Shown here piece after piece: positions 4,141 through 34,078 of a stretch of 64,000 bases of DNA. A model generated the notes under the pieces. That model searched no databases, was not told where the DNA came from, and saw only the letters and a list, made by a program, of their open reading frames with translations. The position numbers and the translations under genes were made by a program. Source of the DNA: Xestospongia bergquistia (Eukaryota; Porifera; Demospongiae; Haplosclerida; Petrosiidae); NCBI GenBank assembly GCA_963965975.1, contig OZ014423.1:3286001-3350000 (forward strand), given 5' to 3'. Position 1 is the first letter of the stretch; the number at the start of each line of letters is the position of its first letter.

Positions 4141-6300
4141 AGAGATAAGTCGATAAAGTAAACTACTCAGTCTAAAGGACTTTGTGGCACTCACTAAATA
4201 AACAGTTATTAACAGTTTAGTAAATTAGTTTGCATTAAGGGTCTAAAGTCTTTAAGTTAAAGACTTTACAAGGTTTAGACTATTGGGAGAAGTTTATAAA
4301 GTAAACTGCTCAGTCTAAAGGACTTTATGGCACTAACTAAATAAACAGTATTAACAGTTTAGTAAGTTAGTTTGCATTAACGGTCTAAAGTCTTTAAGTT
4401 AAAGACTTTAGAAGGTTTAGAGTATTGAGAGAAGTTTATAAAGTAAACTGCTCAGTCTAAAGAACTTTATGGCACAAACTAAATAAACAGCTATTAGCAG
4501 TTTAGTAAGTTAGTTTGTATTAACGCCCTAAAGTCCTTAATTTAAAGACTTTAGAAGGTTTAGACTATTGAGAGAAGTTTATAAAGTAGACAGCTCAGTC
4601 TGAAGGACTTTATGGTACTAACTAAATAAAGTAAAGAGCTATTAGCAGTTTTGTAAGTTAGTTTGCATTAACGCTCTAAAGTCTTTAAGTTAAAGACTTT
4701 TGAAGGTTTAGACTGTTCAGAGAAGTTGATAAAGTAAACTGCTCATTCTAAAGGACTTTATGGCACTAACTAAATAAACAGCTATTAACAGTTTAGTAAG
4801 TTAGTTTGCATTAACGCTCTAAAGTCTTTAAGTTAAAGACTTTAGAAGGTTTAGACTATTGAGAGAAGTTTATAAAGTAAACTGCTTAATCTAAAGGACC
4901 TTATGGCACTAACTAAATAAACAGCTATTAGCAGTTTAGTAAGTTAGGTTGCATTAACGCTCTAAAGTCTTTAAGTTAAAGACTTTAGAAGGTTAAGACT
5001 ATTGAGAGAAGTGGATAATGTAAAGTACTCTGTCTAAAGGACTTTATGAAATTCACTAAATAAACAGCTATTAACAGTTTAGTAAGTTAGTTTGTGTTAA
5101 CGGCCTAAAGTCTTTAAGTTAATGATTTTAGTAGGTTTAGACTATCGATAGAAGTTCATAAAGTAAACTGCTCAGTCTAAAGGACTTTATGGCACTGTCT
5201 AAATAAACAGCTATTAGCAGTTTAGTAAGTTAGTTTGCATTAATGCTCTAAAGTCTTTAAGTTAAAGACTTTAGAAGGTTTAGACTATAGAGATAAGTCG
5301 ATAAAGTAAACTACTCAGTCTGAAGGACTTTGTGGCACTCACTAAATAAACAGTTATTAACAGTTTAGTAAATTAATTTGCATTAAGGGTCTAAAGTCTT
5401 TAAGTTAAAGACTTTAGAAGCTTTAGACTATTGGGAGAGGTTTATAAAGTAAACTGCACAGTCTAAAGGACTTTATCGCACTAACTAAATAAACAGTATT
5501 AAGAGTTTAGTAAGTTAGTTTGCATTAACGGTCTAAAGTCTTTAAGTTAAAGACTTTAGAAGGTTTAGACTATTGAGAGAAGTTTATAAAGTAAACTGCT
5601 AAGCCTAAAGAACTTTATGGCACTAACTAAATAAACAGCTATTAGCAGTTTAGTAAGTTAGTTTGTATTAACGCCCTAAAGTCCTTAATTTAAAGACTTT
5701 AGAAGGTTTAGACTATTGAGAGAAGTTTATAAAGTAGACAGCTCAGTCTGAAGGACTTTATGGCACTAACTAAAGAAAGTAAAGAGCTATTAGCAGTTTT
5801 GTAAGTTAGTTTGCATTAACGCTCTAAAGTCTTTAAGTTAAAGACTTTAGAAGGTTTAGACTGTTCAGAGAAGTTGATAAAGTAAACTGCTCATTCTAAA
5901 GGACTTTATGGCACTAACTAAATAAACAGCTATTAACAGTTTAGTAAGTTAGTTTGCATTAACGCTCTAAAGTCTTTAAGTTGAAGACTTTAGAAGGTTT
6001 AGACTATTGAGAGAAGTTTATAAAGTAAACTGCTTAATCTAAAGGACCTTATGGCACTAACTAAATAAACAGCTATTAGCAGTTTAGTAAGTTAGGTTGC
6101 ATTAACGCTCTAAAGTCTTTAAGTTAAAGACTTTAGAAGGTTAAGACTATTGAGAGAAGTGGATAAAGTAAAGGACTCTGTCTAAAGGACTTTATGACAC
6201 TCACTAAATAAACAGCTATTAACAGTTTAGTAAGTTAGTTTGTATTAACGGCCTAAAGTCTTTAAGTTAAAGACTTTAGTAGGTTTAGACTATCGATAGA
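4141..6300 (+). repeat. Higher-order repeat: 1,148-bp eight-monomer block, two copies
   Basis: A diagnostic variant ('agagataagtcgataaag' followed by 'ctttgtggcactcac') begins at 4,141 and again at 5,289, an offset of 1,148 bp. That is eight 143-bp monomers plus 4 bp. Other private variants recur in the same order at the same offset, such as the extra 'taaagtaaagagc' near 4,626 and 5,774 and the 'gactgttcagagaag' variant. This shows duplication of a whole block rather than of single monomers. Confidence 0.85.
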
Positions 6301-29952: not shown

Positions 29953-30268
29953 TTTTACGTCTATTTTATCCCCTTTGTGGTGCGAAAAAATATGCAAATT
30001 TTAATCCGATATTACCATAAAAATTCATGAATTTTGAAGACATCTTTTAAAATTTTTTTGATGAAAAAATACATGCATTTTAACCTCTGAAAATACTCAT
30101 AATTTAAAAGACTTTTTGAAAACCTTTTGGGCCAAAATTGCATCTTTTCTCTTTTTCTATGTGTTTGGGTGACCAAAGTATAGATATTTACACACCTTTG
30201 TGCCAAAAAAGTAAGGGCACACTTTTAAAATTGTGTATTTTATGCACAAGATGTTCAATTTTCACATA
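29953..30268. other. Low-complexity AT-rich flank left of the transposon
   Basis: Phrases such as 'gccaaaaaagtaagggcaca' and 'gggtgaccaaag' resemble those right of the element ('gggtgacaaatttagggag', 33,871 on). The host sequence may be one older repeat family split by the insertion. No gene was seen. Confidence 0.4.
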
Positions 30269-30308
30269 TGTGACCCAATTTTAGAAAACCACACACTTTG
30301 CGCAAAAT
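30269..30308 (+). repeat. Left terminal inverted repeat, 40 bp
   Basis: It begins 'tgtgaccc' and pairs base for base with 33,780-33,819. Similarity stops immediately after position 40. Confidence 0.95.
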
Positions 30309-30932
30309 TCGAAAATTGAGTTATTGGTATCACGTGAAAGAGCGTCATTTCCTCTACAAATGACGTTTGTCGTATAGTGTTACACCCTTTGGTTGCTAAG
30401 ATATTATGCGTTTACATTACATTTGTCAGAAATTGTCTTTTTGAGAAAATTGAATTTTAAGGTTTCCGTATATTTTCCGTTTGATGACGTCACCAATGTT
30501 GCTTTCCACGTTGCACATTACTGGAAAAGTAGCGAGTTTGACTGTTTGTTTCTACCATCTTTTCTGCTCTTACTTGCCGTGTGATTTGGACCTTAAGGAA
30601 TGTGGATGATTGTTCATTCGTTATTTGTTATGCAAATCAAAGTGGATAACGTATGTAAGTTGATTTAATTATGTGTGTAGTTTATAGTTGGTTTTATTTG
30701 TTGTATTAGGTCAAGCGCTTTTAGTTAGAGGTTTTAATGCTTTCTAGCTATTGTGATGGTATTAAAACTGTTTTCTTGATAGAGTACTAAGATATGAACC
30801 ACGCCTATTAATTAATTAAGGCAGGAAGAGGTCAAGTGCTTTTAAGAAATGTGTTTTATATAAATTTTGTTGATTTTGTTGTATTAGGTGTGTATGTTGT
30901 GGCTTTTAGAAAAGCCATTAAAAAGTTTATAG

Positions 30933-33516
30933 TTATTGTTTACATGACCTCCTGTTGTGTCCCACTTGACTGCATTTTCCACATTTTTTTGAAGATTTTG
31001 ATGATGATCTAAGTGGTTGAACAGCGAATGTTTGTGGTCTTGTTGAACATTGTTCAGGTGTTGGAGGAGGTGATGATTGTGGCTCAGGTGTTTGGCAAGG
31101 TGTGTTTGGCCGTGGTATATCAGGCAATGGACATGTCTTGTTTTTGGAATCTTCAGAACAGTACTGCCGAATTTTGTCATAGAGGTACCACTGCCTTTCT
31201 GATGAGAGACCCTTAGGATGAAGTTGTTGTGGTAACGTTTCATTTGGTGGTATTATATCAGGAAAACGAAGTAGATTTATTGTAGTGGAGTTAGTTGTAG
31301 ATGTTTCTTTAATGAAGATTTGACCATCATTGCTGTTAATATTAAAATGATGTTTTTTTTTTATTGATGGTATCTTTTTAAAGAAGGTAGCCAAATATCC
31401 AGTCCAGTCAAATGTTTTTACTAGAATTTCTCCCTCATGTGTTCCGACTAACTGTGCTGAGTTGACATACGAAGACTGATTTACGATACTTACAATATCG
31501 CTTAAGCTGTTAACTTCAGTTCTTCTAAATCTCTGTTTCAGAAGGCCAAAACACCAATCTGGCGAAAATTTGGTGTGACCAGCTGGTAGGAACGACATAG
31601 TGATTTCTTTGTTTCTTTTTGTTATTACTCTCCACATTAAATACTGAAAGGTAAGAATTGTTCATTATTACCTTTATTGTTAGTTTATTACCTGTATAAA
31701 AGCATTGTTCTTATTCTGACCTGAACAGTTATCAGCATTCAGATGTATTATAGTAGTGTTTAGACCATGATTTTCCAAATAATGATGTACCATACTGATT
31801 ACTGCATTGGCTCCTTTGCCTGTATCTAATGCCTCATCTATTAGATAATTCATTTGTTTTGGTATTGCTTCACAGCAAACACCGAAGATAGCACACTTGC
31901 GTGGCGTTAAGAAGTATAGTGGCCCTGGTTGAAGTGGATTTGATGGGTAGTGGACCTATTACTGTAATTGAAATATGTGATAGTAATAGCTGTTTTAGAA
32001 GGTACCTGTTGTGCAAAATCAAAACTATAGTGAGCTCTGATATTTAACGTTGTGACTGGCCTGGAAATTGGTGGGTGAAACCTTCCACTTGCTGTACCAT
32101 CTACAAGAAAATGACAAATTAAGAAGTAATTTGTCACTATTACAGTACCATCAATAGTGAACAGGTCTTTTAACTCTGTTAATGAGTCTTTTAAGATGGC
32201 ACGGTAATATTCTCGTTCCTGTTTCACTAAGGTAATGTGGTCTTTTGCGAGACGTAATGCCTAAAGTTGGAAGTGTAACAAGTGTACTTGTACTTGTATG
32301 ACGTTACTTACTTCCGATTGTTTTTCTAGGTTGTTTGCAGATCGGACAATAGCTGTACTATTCCTTTGGCAGATCCAGCAAAGATCTGTCATAGGTTTTG
32401 TTATGATTATGTTTGGTAAGTACTTTTGCCATATCCTGTTAAATGCTGAGACTGATGGTAATCTGTCAGTATTTGCTCCATTGGCTTTAATGTACTCCAA
32501 GTACACTGCTCTCTTGGATGTGCTTGATGGCAAAAGTTTCATGTCATATTTTTTGTATCCAGGTATTCGTCCTGGTAGCAAAATGGCATTAGCTTCGGTG
32601 TAGTTTTGAATAAAAGTTATAATTTTAGATGTTAAGTCAAAGCTGAATGCAACAGCTGGTTCTCTGTTGGTGTTTCCATGTCTCCTATTAATTAACACAA
32701 TGGTTTGTTGGTATTTTTATGCTAATTGTACCTTAGTTTGATGCCATTCTCTAGATAGCTTTTTTTGATGGCATCTAACCTGAATTTACCAATTCCGTGG
32801 AGGAAGAGGAACGTTTTTTGACAAATCTAAACAAGTAACTAATGCTGTTAATTGTAATTTCTTAGCTATTCACCTTGTGTCTGTTGTGATAGTAAATAGT
32901 ATGAGTATATTTTCTCTCCACAGGTAGATGTTTCAAAGCTGATGTCATTGGTCCATTTTGTATTGAAGTCAATAACTCGCCCATTATCAGTAAGTCTAAT
33001 TCATTTCGAGATAATTCTGCCATTTCATTTCGAATGCTTCGTATATACCCGTCATCAAAGTAGCTTGAACATTTACTAGTACAACCACAACCATTCTTTA
33101 AAAACTCATCACATGTCCTTTCCTCCAATTTGTCAACATCTCTTTTATCATCTACACAGGTATCCACTTCACCTGTTTCAGTTACAGTTATCAGTGGAGT
33201 AATTGCTGGTTCTAATAGTTTTATTTTGTTTTTCGTTATTACAAAAATTAAAGCAAATACCTTCATATTCCAATAGGTTATCTTCCATGCTATCAGCTTC
33301 CTCTAGATCATCTTCCGTTTCCTCTGAAACGTCATGTTCGATGTCATCCTCTTTAATATTATAAATTATTCATAATGTAATTTGTAATTATAATGAATAT
33401 TATATACCACAGGAAGTAGGCGAGTCTTCACCAAAGTAATCCTCTAAGAGAAGCCTGATCGATTCGTCTTCGTTTGAAGAAGTCCCATTTAAAAGTCTAG
33501 CGATTAGTTCTGCCAT
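30933..33516 (-). CDS. Nine-exon transposase-like protein, 715 residues, complete reading frame
   Basis: Exons (minus strand, first to last): 33,408-33,516; 33,261-33,350; 32,874-33,172; 32,732-32,826; 32,312-32,684; 32,149-32,260; 32,006-32,100; 31,692-31,955; 30,933-31,643. All eight introns (47-88 bp) are GT-AG, phases match at every junction, and the sum is 2,148 nt. Features in order: acidic N-terminus (from MAELIARLL); Cys cluster CGCTSKC; KTFLFLHGIGKFRLDAIKKS; LLPGRIPGYKKYDMKLLPSS; DLCWICQRN; SFDFAQQ (Asp about 388); NADNCSGQNKNN (Asp about 466); GHTKFSPDWCFG (Asp about 508); Pro-rich linker; C-terminal CCHC knuckle CGKCSQVGHNRRSC. The three Asp blocks look like an RNase-H-fold DDE/D site, which is inference. 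The protein presumably recognises the 40-bp TIRs around it. An upstream in-frame ATG at 33,612 would add 32 residues. The second ATG is preferred because the extension is unlike the acidic start. Confidence 0.85.
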
Positions 33517-33779
33517 TATTGCAAGTCGAATGTATTTGAATTTAGTTACTATGACACTACCGTGGTGACGAATGACGTAATAAAGCAAGCAAAACGTCAC
33601 TACTCCGTTCACAAAACTACGGTGACTTTCTAGACCAACAACTCGATAAATACTTATCGTTAGTGATTATATTTGGTATGAAAAGAAAGGTAATTGAATA
33701 AACAATATGATTATACAAAAATCATAATTTTGATTAAAAAAATTTACAAAAAGTTTGCAATACGTTTTTACAAAATTAC

Positions 33780-33819
33780 ATTTTGCGCAAAGTGTGTGGT
33801 TTTCTAAAATTGGGTCACA
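33780..33819 (-). repeat. Right terminal inverted repeat, 40 bp
   Basis: It ends 'gggtcaca' and is the exact reverse complement of 30,269-30,308. Confidence 0.95.
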
Positions 33820-34078
33820 TATATTTTTGCAAAATTAAATTAGAAAAAAACATTAAAAATTCCTTTATTTGGGTGACAAATTTAGGGAGATAGGGGTCAA
33901 AATTTCGTTACATTTTTGGAGTCGAAAATAGTTAAAATGTGCTTAAATAATTGCGGATTTTGGTTGCTTTTCAGTAACATATAGTTTGGTATAATTTTGG
34001 TGCCAATAATACTTGCAAAAAGTCAAAATTCACTTGTTTTCTGTAACAAATTTAGAGAAATAGGATTTATAATTTCAC

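Follow-up and report, generated by a model that had tools for sequence, protein, structure and literature searches.

A very probable TA-preferring DNA transposon of the sponge Xestospongia bergquistia encodes a DUF7869 protein with relatives in sulphate-reducing bacteria

Introduction

Several described groups of DNA transposons invite comparison with the element reported here. Zator and ISAzo13 elements generate 3-bp target duplications, as stated in a passage of PMC10045372, and a passage of PMC7386202 gives a DD29-56D range for pogo transposons. In a section of PMC12730594, PlavakaA is described with a 2-bp target site duplication and 5'-TGT..ACA-3' ends, and a C-x2-C motif is named for EnSpm, Mirage, Chapaev and Transib. 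Here we analyze a stretch of 64,000 nucleotides from the demosponge Xestospongia bergquistia (assembly GCA_963965975.1, contig OZ014423.1, positions 3,286,001 to 3,350,000 of the forward strand), called the window below, which holds a 3,551-bp element whose gene product matches, above the Pfam cut-off, only the domain DUF7869 (PF25273). The evidence presented below makes it very probable that this element is a complete cut-and-paste transposon of the DDD type that prefers TA targets and encodes a DUF7869 transposase, probably inserted recently and probably autonomous.

Results

The element lies on the contig that we number C13 and is delimited by terminal inverted repeats (TIRs) and a flanking dinucleotide, as follows (window coordinates).

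30269-33819, gene on the minus strand: transposon, 3,551 bp
30269-30308, plus strand: left TIR, 40 bp, starting TGTGACCC; 11 ends in its own genome at no more than 3 mismatches
33780-33819, minus strand: right TIR, 40 bp, complementary to the left TIR at 40/40 bases
30267-30268, no strand: left TA of the target duplication, a single TA in the empty site
33820-33821, no strand: right TA of the target duplication, a single TA in the empty site

A perfect inverted repeat of 43 nt (30266-30308 and 33780-33822) leaves 40 of 40 matching bases once the flanking A-T-A is subtracted, which bears out the perfect 40-bp TIRs and the TA flanks of the initial annotation; the ends of the element are thus an inverted 5'-TGTGAC...GTCACA-3'. 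We then searched the genome (146 Mb, 21 contigs, intron-bearing genes) for copies. The 30-base terminus had 11 matches at no more than 3 mismatches, with none for a reversed-pattern control, and these ends resolve into four complete copies of the window's subfamily, F1 (the window copy, L011, L010 and L013), and three single ends. L011 is 95.6% identical to the window element along its full length, while L010 and L013 have internal deletions with both ends kept. TA stands on both sides of all four complete copies, the window included, and precedes nine of the 11 ends (AT and TT precede the remaining two); in L013, TA is all that the two flanks have in common. The ends of two one-sided F1 fragments are not preceded by TA: that of L009 (C15:5001-8077), a one-ended copy of 99.2% identity lying 5 kb from the contig start, and that of L014 (C1:20154845), a lone 54-bp opposite end.

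The insertion target of the window copy is a repeat, so the element-free site can be read directly: the predicted empty site with one TA occurs exactly 29 times in the genome, and its reversed control not once. Under standard parsing the target duplication at the window site is therefore 2 bp (TA); from this site alone, an alternative parsing may have the element itself carry one TA. Both ends were read in six complete copies belonging to F1, F2 or F4, and five of these are flanked TA/TA. The near-identical copies, the TA flanks and the 29 exact empty sites are the reasons for which we regard the element as a transposon. The initial annotation had claimed as much and had proposed looking for copies and empty TA sites, and both were found, the copies being three further complete, TA-flanked ones. 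That a host gene or domesticated transposase lies by chance between inverted repeats is hardly credible: the intact gene and its third-position excess (below) would suit it, but the element is absent at the exact empty sites and exists in several copies, some deleted, with ends identical at 40/40 bases.

The ends and the 2-bp duplication also agree with PlavakaA, and a superfamily already named in Repbase or Dfam, Plavaka-like for example, is possible, though on balance we doubt it. Both TGT...ACA ends and 2-bp duplication are true of the window element; against this, the cysteine/histidine motifs of CACTA type are absent between the last two catalytic acids, an interval of 41 residues without C-x2-C, and Pfam lists no transposase model other than PF07592.

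The window protein belongs to DUF7869 with E=5e-19 and 69 bits, against a curated cut-off of 26, and the Pfam scan returned nothing else above cut-off. The same profile scores 70-77 bits in all five subfamily cores and 57-69 bits in all three bacterial proteins described below. These bacterial relatives have no NCBIfam match above cut-off, and the term 'DUF7869' was not found in any paper of the literature searched, in keeping with the description of the family as unnamed. The gene runs on the minus strand from an ATG at 33516 to a stop at 30933 in nine exons, with eight GT-AG introns and an open frame, and contains every motif listed in the initial annotation, namely three Asp blocks, a CWIC pair and a CCHC knuckle.

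33408-33516, minus strand: exon 1, start codon at 33516; 3' junction without outside support
33261-33350, minus strand: exon 2, junctions without outside support
32874-33211 (starting at 33172 with an 88-nt intron 2), minus strand: exon 3, with a CGC...C motif common to two bacterial proteins
32732-32826, minus strand: exon 4
32312-32684, minus strand: exon 5, with the CWIC pair; C-x2-C invariant in 9/9 aligned relatives
32149-32260, minus strand: exon 6
32006-32100, minus strand: exon 7, with the first conserved Asp, SFDFAQQ
31692-31955, minus strand: exon 8, with the second conserved Asp, NADNCSGQNKNN
30933-31643, minus strand: exon 9, with the third conserved Asp GHTKFSPDWCFG, the RQWYLYDKIR block and the stop
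30942-30983, minus strand: C-terminal CCHC zinc knuckle, CGKCSQVGHNRRSC

Introns 1 to 8 measure 57, 49 or 88, 47, 47, 51, 48, 50 and 48 nt. Intron 2 has two fitting acceptors, of which the 88-nt choice gives the 715 codons first proposed and the 49-nt choice 728; allowing acceptors 40-99 nt downstream of these donors leaves 288 open combinations, so that splicing is not unique from sequence, and a cruder automatic gene model has seven introns. Alignment to the contiguous bacterial proteins gives gap-free joins at introns 3, 4, 5, 7 and 8, while intron 6 falls within a variable stretch of that alignment and introns 1 and 2 gain no useful support. In subfamily gene models guided by the window protein, introns 5 and 8 keep their position in F3, F4, F5 and F6, and intron 7 does so in F5 and F6; F3 and F4 have an intron at a different place instead of intron 7, and intron 6 is modelled in F1 only. 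The CCHC knuckle recurs in F2, F3, F4 and F5, and was not found in the searched F6 loci or in the bacterial proteins.

Codon positions carry a sign that the protein was under selection until lately. Between the window copy and the 99.2% identical L009, positions 1, 2 and 3 show 1, 2 and 10 changes (691 sites each), and in comparisons with three F2 copies, 52-57% of third-position sites differ, as opposed to 11-27% at the first two positions. Among the F1 copies found, the window copy has the sole complete open gene: L009 is missing one end and carries one indel base within its coding part, and L011 contains two in-frame stops and has lost pieces of exons.

The Asp residues of S(F/W/L)D, (A/M)DN and GH(T/A)KF.PD are invariant across nine aligned proteins, bacterial and eukaryotic, which upholds the reading of these blocks as conserved. 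The three also align in the distant sponge types F7 and F8, and in the bacterial fragment L069 as far as it reaches, and some broken copies show an altered triad (SFGFAQQ in L044, AENC in L058). NYLIDE contains an Asp-Glu pair that all nine proteins share, but the invariance does not extend to F7/F8. Between the second and third Asp, each of the five subfamily cores has 41 residues, one or two of them Cys. This pattern makes a catalytic D-D-D RNase-H core likely; the RNase-H fold itself we can only infer, because the structure models are unreliable (two AlphaFold models were of low confidence, and fold searches with the second were uninformative).

The 41-residue interval falls inside the pogo range and, with the TA duplication found in 4/4 complete F1 copies, would fit membership in the ITm (IS630-Tc1-mariner) clade. 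We nevertheless consider such membership distinctly unlikely: no DDE_1 or DDE_3 profile is listed by Pfam for 8/8 DUF7869 proteins at E<=10, although HMMER's filters let few matches with E above about 0.1 through, and in hhalign an IS630 fragment (an approximate query) reached z=1.2, against 3.6 and 6.1 for ISAzo13.

Outside its own genome, the closest relatives of the window transposon among the sequences searched are in sulphate-reducing bacteria, and these bacterial relatives are a new observation. The prokaryote scan used an alignment of five subfamilies, restricted to two short peptide patterns that more distant genes would escape, and returned 64 stretches, three of which encode relatives: one in an isolate, Desulfocicer vacuolatum DSM 3385 (NZ_FWXY01000014.1; Desulfobacteraceae, phylum Thermodesulfobacteriota), and one each in metagenome-assembled genomes (MAGs) of Desulfobacteraceae and Deltaproteobacteria. 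Their genes are intronless and their proteins colinear with the window protein along nearly its whole length, up to the RQWYLY block, with 214 of 627 aligned residues identical between the window and Desulfocicer proteins. Identity in the catalytic domain is 47-54% when F1 and F3-F6 are compared with the three bacterial proteins, but 18-23% when they are compared with F7/F8 from the same sponge genome.

The Desulfocicer gene (L066:3464-5437) sits inside inverted repeats matching at 43/43 bases (L066:3367-3409 and 5448-5490) and its element adjoins IS3-type fragments. Its TIR reads TGGGGAG..., the first base being placed from the point where the L066 and L071 flanks diverge. Right-end sequence is similar among L064, L065 and L071, for which a left end was looked for and not found, and the flanks of the bacterial elements show no clear target duplication. 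The bacterial family looks rare: the DUF7869 profile matched one of 395 genomes of the phylum (Desulfocicer itself), and the Desulfocicer protein matched three of 86 genomes of its family (itself, the contig-end fragment L071 and the distant L072). Because the same enzyme type occurs in an insertion sequence (IS)-like desulfobacterial element, the group spans bacteria and eukaryotes. Judging from the sequences, transfer between domains would be the simplest reading; the small tree does not settle its direction. A second bacterial DUF7869 type is seen in L072:424-2616 (an open frame of 731 residues) and L069, with SLDYQQ, MDNGPTNKN and GHAKFDPD; around L072 no TIR rose above chance. On the MAG contig L064, an IS630-type transposase gene, read from its translation, lies at 1888-2823 directly beside the DUF7869 gene.

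Within the sponge genome, 53 candidates yielded 39 DUF7869 matches, each exon being counted separately, against matches in 0/14 control genomes. From fetched copies we defined subfamilies F1 to F6, with F3-F6 cores 50-53% identical to F1. All 21 ends read in F2-F6 begin TGTGAC except for one CGTGAC (L034), with L044 excluded as its end is altered. TA precedes 16 of the 21 (F2 3/3, F3 4/4, F4 6/8, F5 1/3, F6 2/3), and some of the F4 ends have one flank in common and may be duplicates of a single insertion. The F4 copy L063 lies inside a 143-bp satellite and is flanked by AA at each end; compared with neighbouring satellite units, it fits a 2-bp duplication too. More distant DUF7869 genes lie at L036 (C4), L027 (C3), L037 (C7) and L031 (C6); in L036 (F7) and L031 (F8), which share 18-23% identity with the window type, GHTHE..D replaces GHTKF.PD.

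The F3/F5 terminus pattern matched the genome 736 times at no more than 3 mismatches, and the control pattern had no match. The 100 matches listed include nine convergent pairs with a spacing of 427-428 bp and four with a spacing of 239-245 bp; a further pair, with its ends 4,291 bp apart (C1:11033889-11038179), encloses the F5 gene L045. Judged by end spacing, these pairs look like miniature inverted-repeat transposable elements and full elements served by one transposase type. Seven of the 100 listed termini are no more than about 45 kb from a contig end (C5:45165, C6:24782, C8:22977, C9:6524, C12:13647, C14:42501 and C15:5359711), perhaps a subtelomeric preference. The satellite of about 143 bp (L063:1-2412 and 6650-9901 on C11, and also beside L046 and L051) is bordered by F4, F5 and F6 elements. 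The target repeat of the window copy (window 30200-30268 and 33820-33890), surveyed by scoring 40 of 86 candidates, is on at least eight contigs (C4, C5, C6, C7, C10, C11, C13, C15), with a fairly regular spacing of mostly 110-224 kb and a single orientation within each contig (for example C13 at 3.32, 3.54, 3.75, 3.96 and 4.16 Mb, and C6 at 3.38-4.25 Mb). It is mid-contig on C4, C11, C13 and C15, the contigs whose length was seen, and its spacing suggests very long tandem or centromere-like units.

The sole transposase family that Pfam lists for these proteins is PF07592 (Zator/ISAzo13). F1 matches it at E 0.0055 and 0.0023 and a single bacterial protein at 0.12; the other six proteins have no listed match. 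In hhalign, the domain scored 29.3 against four ISAzo13 proteins, above 200 column-permuted templates (mean 13.2, maximum 23.3) and the reversed control (12.6); the match is colinear over 94 columns and pairs the second and third acidic blocks, the third Asp standing adjacent to the ISAzo13 Glu, not on it. Single-sequence z scores were 3.6 and 6.1 for ISAzo13, 1.2 for the IS630 fragment and 0.6 for IS3, and -1.2, 2.7, 0.3 and 3.7 for four unrelated proteins, and we therefore take a profile relation to ISAzo13/Zator transposases as suggestive only. A Zator/ISAzo13 branch whose target duplication shifted from 3 to 2 bp would account for the listed profile and the colinear alignment, but it is unlikely, given that the best score is 17.5 bits against the Pfam cut-off of 26.9 and that 2 bp, not 3, fits here; a genome scan with PF07592 gave no match either, although its controls gave none as well.

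Discussion

Taken together, the TIRs, the fixed-length duplication and the empty sites are those of a cut-and-paste DNA transposon whose superfamily is probably unnamed and has a bacterial branch. No named superfamily fitted among the Pfam and NCBIfam profiles and the described groups compared; a name may exist in Repbase or Dfam. The fuller proposal, in which DUF7869 constitutes an unnamed superfamily whose TA-preferring DDD transposons passed between bacteria and eukaryotes, with the window element as an apparently intact autonomous copy, is a tentative one, finely balanced and a shade on the doubtful side. Mechanistically, the enzyme would bind the 40-bp ends, cut them by means of an active site of D-D-D RNase-H type and join them to TA with a 2-bp stagger whose repair would yield the duplication. 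Recognition of the ends or the target may fall to zinc-binding parts, namely the C-x2-C block, the CCHC knuckle and the N-terminal Cys motif.

DUF7869, a family whose function is unassigned, hereby gains a concrete job, together with defined ends, a target, empty sites and probable non-autonomous partners. The list of eukaryotic transposon groups that have a bacterial counterpart grows by one candidate, and an apparently intact copy is available for direct activity testing.

Compared with known systems, the window protein is a member of PF25273 above its cut-off, an entry that describes only a domain of unknown function, without ends, target or mechanism. With ISAzo13 of bacteria and Zator of eukaryotes the element has in common a weak colinear profile similarity over the second and third acidic blocks, whereas these groups have a 3-bp duplication and Glu as third acid, and the match stays below the Pfam cut-off. 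Tc1/mariner elements resemble it in the TA target and the 41 residues between the last two acids, and the window element differs from them in its eight-intron gene, its protein of about 720 residues, its 40-bp TGTGAC ends and the absence of a listed DDE_1/DDE_3 match. The bacterial DUF7869 genes differ in having no introns, no CCHC knuckle and another TIR sequence, yet share with the sponge element the colinear protein, the RQWYLY block, an N-terminal C-x-C...C motif (Desulfocicer and L065) and, in Desulfocicer, a long perfect TIR.
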